A stretch of DNA of 44,647 nt, taken from positions 1-44,647 of the forward strand of contig JAJYYB010000015.1 in assembly GCA_021801355.1 (NCBI GenBank). The letters are read 5' to 3'. The position numbers and the translations under genes are program-made. Shown piece after piece: positions 4,238-44,153 of this stretch. Source of the stretch: Microcaldota archaeon. GTDB lineage: Archaea > Micrarchaeota > Micrarchaeia > Micrarchaeales > Micrarchaeaceae. The notes under the pieces are model-generated. The model saw only the letters and a program-made list of their open reading frames with translations, ran no database searches and was not told where the DNA came from. Position 1 is the first letter of the stretch. Each line of letters opens with the position of its first letter.

Positions 4238-4960
4238 CTATTTCCTCCTTGAACTCACTGCAACTAGATGGCACTCGTTTTCGTAGCCAAGCGCCTGCTT
4301 GAAAACATCAGGCTCCATGGCTACCGTGCTATCGGAGTACGGATCGTTTATGTAGAATGTGTCCTTGTCGTAGCCCTTGACGACAACCCAATGGGGTGAA
4401 GCTTCAAGGTACGAATTGATCACGTTAGCGTTTACCAGCACAATAGGTATAAGCCCATTGTTGAGATGCTTCTTTATAGTGTTTGTGGTGGTCTGCGAGT
4501 AGAGTTCACTCACTTTCATTTCCTTTACCTTGCTTTTTATCTCGTTAAAAGATGAGTTAAGGGTCTCGAGGTTTATTCCTTCGTAAACTGCCAACTTCTT
4601 CTCGTAGCCCTCATCCTTTACGTTGCTCACTATGGTCGGGTTCGTGCCTCTCTTAGCAAGAGCGTACGCAAGGCCGTATCTCGAACCGTGCCATACGCTG
4701 CCATTTACCGCTTCCTGCCATATCTCAAATTCCTGCTCTTTTTGCATCTTGAATGATTTGTTTATGTACTTCAATACCATCATTGCGCAGGCAGCCGCGC
4801 TGGTGAATTCCTCCGTCTGGGCGTAAGTTGGTATATCGAAAATCTTAGCCTCCTTCAATTTTGTCTTCCTGACCTTTAGCGCGCTTTTCTTTGCGATCTT
4901 GCTAACGGCCTTCTTGCCCGACTTCTTGACAGCCTTCTTCTGCGTTTTTTTCTGTGCCAT
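4238..4960 (-). CDS. Peptidase C39-like (papain-fold) protein with Lys-rich tail and altered active site
   Basis: The ATG at 4960 (MAQKKTQKKA) is chosen because an upstream extension to 5008 would run into tRNA-Leu. The first ~38 residues are a Lys/Ala-rich basic tail, resembling histone H1-like or nucleic-acid-binding tails. From residue 41 the protein follows the C39-like fold: IPTYAQTEEF, a helix, a His in SPHWVVVKGYD and an Asp in YINDPYSD. The usual TCGPA box with the nucleophilic Cys reads TSAAA (S54), so the Cys is replaced by Ser, although C58 lies nearby. It may be inactive as a cysteine protease or act as a binding protein. No signal peptide is seen. It lies directly downstream of tRNA-Leu. 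Confidence 0.7.
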   Translation of the reverse strand: MAQKKTQKKAVKKSGKKAVSKIAKKSALKVRKTKLKEAKIFDIPTYAQTEEFTSAAACAMMVLKYINKSFKMQKEQEFEIWQEAVNGSVWHGSRYGLAYALAKRGTNPTIVSNVKDEGYEKKLAVYEGINLETLNSSFNEIKSKVKEMKVSELYSQTTTNTIKKHLNNGLIPIVLVNANVINSYLEASPHWVVVKGYDKDTFYINDPYSDSTVAMEPDVFKQALGYENECHLVAVSSRRK

Positions 4961-4985
4961 AGTTTTCACCGATAAACACAAAAAG

Positions 4986-5085
4986 TGCAGGGAGAGAGAT
5001 TTGTTCAACTTTTCTTTGAACTCCCGTAGGCCTAAGCCAACGGATCTTGAGTCCGTCGCGTTTGACCAGGCTCCGCCATCCCTGC
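4986..5085 (-). tRNA. tRNA-Leu (anticodon CAA) with a T-loop intron
   Basis: The acceptor stem GCAGGGA/TCCCTGC is a perfect 7 bp. The D-arm is leucine-like (GAGCCTGGTCAAA), the anticodon loop CTCAAGA gives CAA, and a long class II variable arm follows. The T-arm stem GGGAG/CTCTC is interrupted: the loop is 22 nt instead of 7. Removing 15 nt (5001-5015) restores loop TTCAAAT, which fits the T-loop consensus exactly, and gives an 85-nt mature tRNA. Discriminator is A and no CCA is encoded. Confidence 0.93.
5001..5015 (-). other. 15-nt intron in the T-loop (position 59/60) of tRNA-Leu
   Basis: On the minus strand the flanks form a bulge-helix-bulge: outer helix GGGA/TCTC, a 3-nt bulge AAA on the 3' side, a 4-bp central helix GTTC/GAAC, and a 3-nt bulge AAA on the 5' side, with a weak inner helix. 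Cutting after the second A of each bulge, as the archaeal splicing endonuclease does, releases AGAAAAGTTGAACAA and joins TTCAA to AT. The central helix pairs 5' exon with intron 3' end, as in other archaeal tRNA introns. Confidence 0.85.
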
Positions 5086-42644: not shown

Positions 42645-44130
42645 ACTCCAGTCGATGCTGCTGGAGGACACTGCTATCAGATTTCGACAGCCATGCAAGT
42701 TAGCTCAACGGCTTCGTTGGGCGGCGTACGGCTCAGTAACACGTAGTCAATCTACCGTAAAGAGGCGGATACCCTCGGGAAACTGAGGTTAATACACCAT
42801 AGGATAGGACATCTGGAAGGAGTTCTAACTTAAAGGTGCGCGAATTGCAGCGTAACTGCTTTACGATGAGACTGCGGCGGATCAGGCAGATGGCGGGGTA
42901 ATGGCCCACCATACCGATAACCCGTAGGGGCTGTGAGAGCAGAAGCCCCGAGAAGGGCACTGAGACAAGGGCCCTAGCGCTACGGCGTGCAGCAGGCGCG
43001 CAAACTCCACAATGCGCATACGCGTGATGGGGGGAATCTGAGCGGTTCACTTCGGTGAACCTTTTGCCAAGTCCAGTCAGCTTGGCGAATAAGTGCTGGG
43101 CAAGACCGGTGGCAGCCGCCACGGTAATACCGGCAGCACAAGTGGTGTCCACGATTATTTGGCTTAAAGCGCTCGTAGCTGGCCGATACCGTCTCATGTG
43201 AAATATTGGCGCTCAACGTCAATGCGTGCATGAGATACCTATTGGCTAGGGAGTGGGTGAGGTAAGGGGTACTCATTGGGGAGGGGTAAAATCCTGTAAT
43301 CCTATGAGGACCAACGGTGGCGAAGGCGCCTTACCAGAACACATCCGACAGTGAGGAGCTAAGGCTAGGAGAACAAATCGGATTAGATACCCGAGTAGCC
43401 CTAGCAGTAAATTATGTAGACTCTGGTGTTGCAAATGTCTAGAACGTTTGCAGTACCGTAGCGAAAGTGTTAAGTCTACCGCCTGGGGAGTACGGCCGCA
43501 AGGTTGAAACTTAAAGCAATTGGCGGGGGAGCACCACAAGGGGTGGATGCTGCGGTTTAATTGAATTCAACGTCGGAAACATTACCAGGAGCGACGGCAG
43601 GATGAAGGCCAGACTAAAGATCTTGCCTGACGAGCCGAGAGGTAGTACATGGCGATCGTCAGCTCGTGGTGTGAACTGTCCGGTTAAGTCCGGTAACGAG
43701 CGAGACCTTCGCTAATAGTTGCAACTTGGTTAGAGATAACCAGGGCACTCTATTAGGACCGCCTCTGTTTAAAGAGGAGGAAGGAGAGGGCAACGGTACG
43801 TCAGTATGCTCTGAATCTCCTGGGCTACACGCGGCATACAAAGGTTGGCACAATGAGATGCAATACCGAAAGGTAGAGCCAATCCCCTAAAACCAACCTA
43901 GGTTCGGATTGAGGGTTGAAACTCACCCTCATGAAGCTGGAATCCCTAGTAATCGCTTGTCATTATCGAGCGGTGAATCTGTCCCTGCTCCTTGCACACA
44001 CCGCCTGCCAAGTCACCCAAGTGGGGTCCTAGTGAGGCAGTGCCTTCGGGCACTTTCGAGTTAGGGTTCCGTGAGGAGGGCTAAGGCATAACAAGGTATC
44101 TGTAGGGGAACCTGCAGATAGATCACCTCG
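42645..44130 (+). rRNA. 16S ribosomal RNA
   Basis: Full-length archaeal-type 16S of about 1486 nt, from ACTCCAGTCGATGCTGCTGG to GATCACCTC. Conserved blocks include GGATTAGATACCC (43380), AATTGGCGGGGGAGCAC (43518), GGTTTAATTGAATTC and CTTGCACACACCGCC. The anti-Shine-Dalgarno end is CACCTCG. Ends are set by alignment by eye and may be off by a few bases. Several near-universal positions are changed, often as pairs: 18/917, 1404/1497, 1406/1495; also 518 and 527. No intron is seen. Confidence 0.95.
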
Positions 44131-44153
44131 AATATTTTAGTGTGCAGAGTCTA

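Follow-up and report, generated by a model that had tools for sequence, protein, structure and literature searches.

The window analysed here is a 44,647-nt contig of an archaeon of the family Micrarchaeaceae. In it, the T-stem of a tRNA-Leu(CAA) gene closes a loop of 22 nt, not 7, raising the question of whether the additional nucleotides are removed by splicing, are retained in the mature tRNA or mark a decaying gene copy. The original prediction, made from the sequence alone, had described a 15-nt intron inside this T-loop.

The interrupted tRNA-Leu(CAA) gene

Analysis with the Rfam tRNA model (RF00005) confirmed the predicted coordinates of the gene: the model spanned 4986-5085 on the minus strand end to end with a score of 43.7 bits (gathering threshold 29) and placed the insert in the T-loop. 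The stem GGGAG/CUCUC did enclose 22 nt as described, at 4999-5020: UUCAAAGAAAAGUUGAACAAAU. When 5001-5015 were deleted in silico, the T-loop read UUCAAAU and ARAGORN called tRNA-Leu(caa), indicating that removal of the insert restores a canonical tRNA. The 100-nt pre-tRNA would thereby give a mature tRNA of 85 nt, in which the CCA end is not encoded. ARAGORN made no call on the unspliced gene, and in the whole window it reported only tRNA-Ala(CGC) and tRNA-Thr(GGT). The expectation that gene-callers can miss this tRNA thus held for ARAGORN but not for the Rfam model. The features of the locus are as follows (.. joins first and last positions).

4986..5085, minus strand: tRNA-Leu(CAA) gene with T-loop intron (Rfam RF00005, 43.7 bits, and ARAGORN after in-silico splicing)
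5016..5085, minus strand: exon 1, to A58 in the 58/59 register (aligned to intron-free orthologs)
5001..5015, minus strand: intron, 15 nt, AGAAAAGUUGAACAA, in the 58/59 register (intron-free orthologs; predicted cut after the second of the three bulge nucleotides, as seen in the ARMAN-2 enzyme-RNA structure)
5000-5014, minus strand: intron in the 59/60 register (same mature RNA as 58/59)
4986..5000, minus strand: exon 2 (aligned to intron-free orthologs)
5018..5021, minus strand: GUUC, exon strand of the central helix, G53-C56 (352/352 pair cells kept in 88 sequences)
5003..5006, minus strand: GAAC, intron strand of the central helix; GAAC, GAAU, GGAC or GAGC in relatives (ortholog comparison)
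5015..5017, minus strand: AAA bulge at the 5' splice site (AAA or AAU in 88/88)
5000..5002, minus strand: AAA bulge at the 3' splice site (AAA in 81/88)
5021..5025, minus strand: T-stem 5' strand, GGGAG (ortholog comparison)
4994..4998, minus strand: T-stem 3' strand, CUCUC (ortholog comparison)
5047..5049, minus strand: anticodon CAA (ARAGORN, spliced gene)
4238..4960, minus strand: C39-like peptidase family gene, DUF3335 (Pfam; neighbour of the tRNA in 36/36 relatives' loci)

The intron had been assigned to position 59/60. The deletion of 5001-5015 leaves the junction between A58 and A59, which is formally 58/59; the 59/60 register is indistinguishable from it and gives the same product. A second, intact tRNA-Leu(CAA), which would have spoken against the prediction, was searched for in the genome (96% complete; its tRNA catalogue is based on Rfam and pattern matches). 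Only the one match was obtained, and the other tRNA-Leu genes seen were TAG, GAG and CAG. Downstream of the tRNA and in the same orientation, the C39-like gene begins after a spacer of only 25 nt (4961-4985); the pair may be co-transcribed. A Trm1 gene also lies near the tRNA, and a full archaeal 16S rRNA gene is located at 42645-44131, near the window end.

Conservation of the insert and its pairing across the order

A BLAST search with the 100-nt gene gave matches in 95 of the 99 genomes of the order, most of them over the whole length, and 93 orthologous genes, including that of the window, were read. As the original prediction had proposed, these were checked for the insert: one was present at the same T-loop site in 88 of them, with a length of 10-21 nt (mode 13), a frequency that is more than chance. 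The other five had a plain 7-nt T-loop, UUCAAAU or UUCGAAU. Four genes from one family of the same class, outside the order, served as an outgroup and read UUCAAAU without an insert. Because the C39-like gene adjoined the tRNA in all 36 relatives' loci tested, the orthologs occupy the same locus. In one relative (G057) the insert was 10 nt long, one below the archaeal minimum of 11 nt given in PMC4090602. The simplest history read from these sequences would be that the intron was gained no later than the base of the order and has since been lost several times, and its order-wide retention in tRNA-Leu(CAA) is probably ancient.

The interior of the insert was hypervariable, with 78 distinct interiors among the 88 sequences. 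The strand facing exon GUUC read GAAC in 65, GAAU in 10, GGAC in 7 and GAGC in 6, so that standard or wobble pairs were found in 352/352 cells of the helix; wobble variants, of three kinds, occurred in 23 sequences. The nucleotide opposite G53 was C or U in 88/88 and never A or G. Sliding the partner strand by 1-3 nt lowered the pairing to 14-50%. Mutational bias could account for part of this signal, since three of the four possible partner-strand transitions keep pairing; the fourth transition and all transversions were absent. Taken with the in-silico splicing and the intron-free orthologs, which have the 7-nt loop that was predicted, the conserved pairing supports the earlier identification of the insert as an intron.

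The bulge-helix-bulge that had been proposed was borne out in part. The GUUC/GAAC helix and the two AAA bulges were present. In a strict hBHBh' check, the outer helix formed only in a slipped register and the inner helix was absent or weak; a one-register shift of the T-stem is needed because G53 is borrowed by the central helix. The lowest-energy fold of the arm used this slipped register (-6.3 kcal/mol, compared with -4.2 kcal/mol for the best native-register fold tried) and also paired the first two A of the 5' bulge with UU, which in the modelled fold of the window's copy can hide the 5' splice site inside a 6-bp hairpin. This extended hairpin, GUUCAA/UUGAAC, was rejected as a conserved motif: TT preceded the GAAC strand in only 36/88 sequences. 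Inserts of about 13 nt leave hardly any room for an inner helix, and most copies therefore have a bulge-helix-loop, a relaxed motif.

Splicing machinery, sibling introns and alternative readings

The genome contains one EndA gene (contig C3), which matched the ARMAN-2 epsilon2 structure 4FZ2 over residues 6-388 (E 2.2e-175) as a single chain made up of three units (about 390 aa), in line with the predicted ARMAN-type enzyme. The equivalents of nine ARMAN-2 functional residues (Y160, K161, K228, Y236, H251, S252, R275, K282 and W384), whose roles have been reported (PMC12397907), were found by counting along the 4FZ2 alignment, and all were identical. In EndA numbering they include the catalytic triad Y237, H252 and K283 and the ARMAN-specific-loop residues Y161 and K162. 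The enzyme thus shares its functional residues with an endonuclease known for relaxed substrates (PMC12397907, PMC6379350). An RtcB ligase is also encoded. Of 24 same-class genomes sampled, 23 had a near-full-length EndA relative (48-58% identity) and the remaining one had a weaker relative (39%). Genomes with an intron-free tRNA-Leu(CAA) were among them; judged from these, the permissive endonuclease probably predates the intron. The bulge-helix-loop form of most copies suggests that a relaxed enzyme is likely to be required, as had been proposed.

Four further tRNAs of the genome carried T-loop introns. At the same site, tRNA-Arg(TCT), Arg(TCG) and Arg(CCT) had inserts of 16, 16 and 36 nt, respectively, and splicing in silico turned all three into normal tRNAs. 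tRNA-Ser(GGA), within C18:4450-4850, had two introns, one in the T-loop and one in the anticodon loop after the anticodon, an arrangement common to several relatives. A pattern for this type of T-loop intron matched 68/98 relatives (reversed control, 0) and 127/290 genomes of a phylum sample. Among the 98 distinct sequences drawn from the phylum-sample matches, T preceded GAA in 94, a feature outside the pattern that gives a UUCA/UGAA helix with cutting at 59/60, and 69 could also form an inner helix of 2 bp or more. The isotypes included Arg, Ser, Ala and Lys; they were read from the exons, as ARAGORN with a short upstream flank mislabels Ser as Ala, Pro or Thr. A Ser-like tRNA at C7:5151-5250, called a stop tRNA by ARAGORN, has an intron apparently before the anticodon and is probably Ser(CGA).

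These results allow the alternatives to be weighed. Retention of the insert as an enlarged T-loop would draw on the hairpin in which it lies, since this is able to extend the T-arm, but contact between the T-loop and the D-loop is nearly universal in tRNAs, and the orthologs lacking the insert have an exact 7-nt loop. Moreover, pairing is maintained in the partner strand but the remainder of the insert varies freely, which is the behaviour expected of a splice motif, and the genome encodes a splicing endonuclease. On the evidence of the orthologs and the conserved pairing we rejected this reading as extremely improbable. The same evidence, with the single copy, led us to reject a decaying pseudogene whose function another copy supplies. 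With 43.7 bits in Rfam the gene does score below the two remaining tRNAs of the window (62-64 bits), but its exons are conserved, its stems are intact, the insert is kept in 88/93 species read and no second copy was found in the genome; there is very little chance that the gene is such a relic.

A third alternative accepts the intron and differs in the motif: cleavage at 59/60 with a central helix UUCA/UGAA of the kind seen in the Arg/Ser/Ala siblings, GUUC/GAAC being secondary. UGAA is possible in the window's copy and in 65/88 relatives, and the preference of the siblings for T before GAA points the same way. In Leu, however, this would leave a 5-nt 3' bulge (CAAAU), and the invariable C or U opposite G53 is what GUUC pairing predicts. 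We consider the UUCA/UGAA motif unlikely, though with an appreciable chance of being correct. The reading that we hold with high confidence, on comparative grounds, is that of a protein-spliced archaeal intron located at 58/59 or 59/60 within the T-loop of the only tRNA-Leu(CAA) detected in the genome. In the predicted precursor, exon G53-U54-U55-C56 would form a 4-bp helix with intron GAAC, with an AAA bulge at either splice site and what is left of the intron as a small loop (a bulge-helix-loop or weak bulge-helix-bulge). The epsilon2 endonuclease would then cleave after the second nucleotide of each bulge, and ligation of the two halves by RtcB would yield a functional tRNA with the 7-nt loop UUCAAAU.

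Relation to known introns and significance

Position 59/60 is listed as an intron position for some archaeal genomes, and archaeal introns have lengths of 11-129 nt and medians mostly of 12-25 nt (PMC4090602). The 15 nt found here is thus an ordinary length, contrary to the earlier description of the intron as one of the shorter ones. T-loop motifs were noted in a further review (PMC6379350), and 59/60 is also the joint of the permuted tRNAs of Thermofilum and Cyanidioschyzon (PMC3218864). The tRNA-Leu(CAA) intron resembles the known archaeal 59/60 introns in its T-loop position, its BHB-like motif and the normal 7-nt loop that removal restores (PMC4090602); it differs from them in being kept across a Micrarchaeota order, mostly as a minimal bulge-helix-loop of 10-16 nt. 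Nucleomorph and red algal tRNAs likewise have T-arm introns, some far shorter (3 nt) (PMC4090602, PMC9602550), but these are eukaryotic and depend on another splicing enzyme. T-loop introns at 59/60 are therefore already known in archaea, and that of tRNA-Leu(CAA) adds a well-supported case to this kind. What is new is its order-wide and probably ancient retention, for which priority is not established: no report of order-wide T-loop introns in Micrarchaeota was found in the literature searched, the main ARMAN tRNA paper (10.1093/nar/gkr692) lying outside its scope, and PMC12397907 and PMC6379350 contain no Micrarchaeota-wide intron census.

T-loop introns might be kept by selection in that they interrupt the 3' half of the tRNA, which serves the abundant tyrosine integrases of these genomes as an attachment site. 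The integrase family of the two elements described below was found in 68/98 relatives. At 27 of 30 inspected integrase loci a recognisable tRNA gene lay within 450 nt upstream, always with an uninterrupted T-loop; Leu(UAG) was the commonest target and Glu(TTC) was also frequent. Neither tRNA-Leu(CAA) nor a recognised T-loop-intron tRNA adjoined an integrase at these 30 loci, a count made with ARAGORN, which cannot see T-loop-intron genes. Because of this blindness, and because integrase lineages share sites, the shielding of attachment sites is only a correlation, and we regard selection of this kind as rather improbable. Two elements of about 4.4 kb, C20:49963-54415 and C12:55133-59684, lie between an intact tRNA (Glu-TTC and Ala-TGC, respectively) and a 3' fragment of the same tRNA. 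In both, a tyrosine integrase adjoins the intact tRNA, and one of the two further encodes a ParA-like ATPase, a DDE transposase and a T5orf172-type protein.

If an annotation pipeline overlooks introns of this kind, it will list essential tRNAs (Leu-CAA, Arg, Ser-GGA) as absent in Micrarchaeota. The intron-bearing and intron-free orthologs offer natural substrates for studying the ARMAN-type endonuclease on bulge-helix-loop motifs outside the anticodon loop. Non-canonical introns have been described as translocatable and late-acquired (PMC4390854); the tRNA-Leu(CAA) orthologs suggest that such an intron can be retained across an order.
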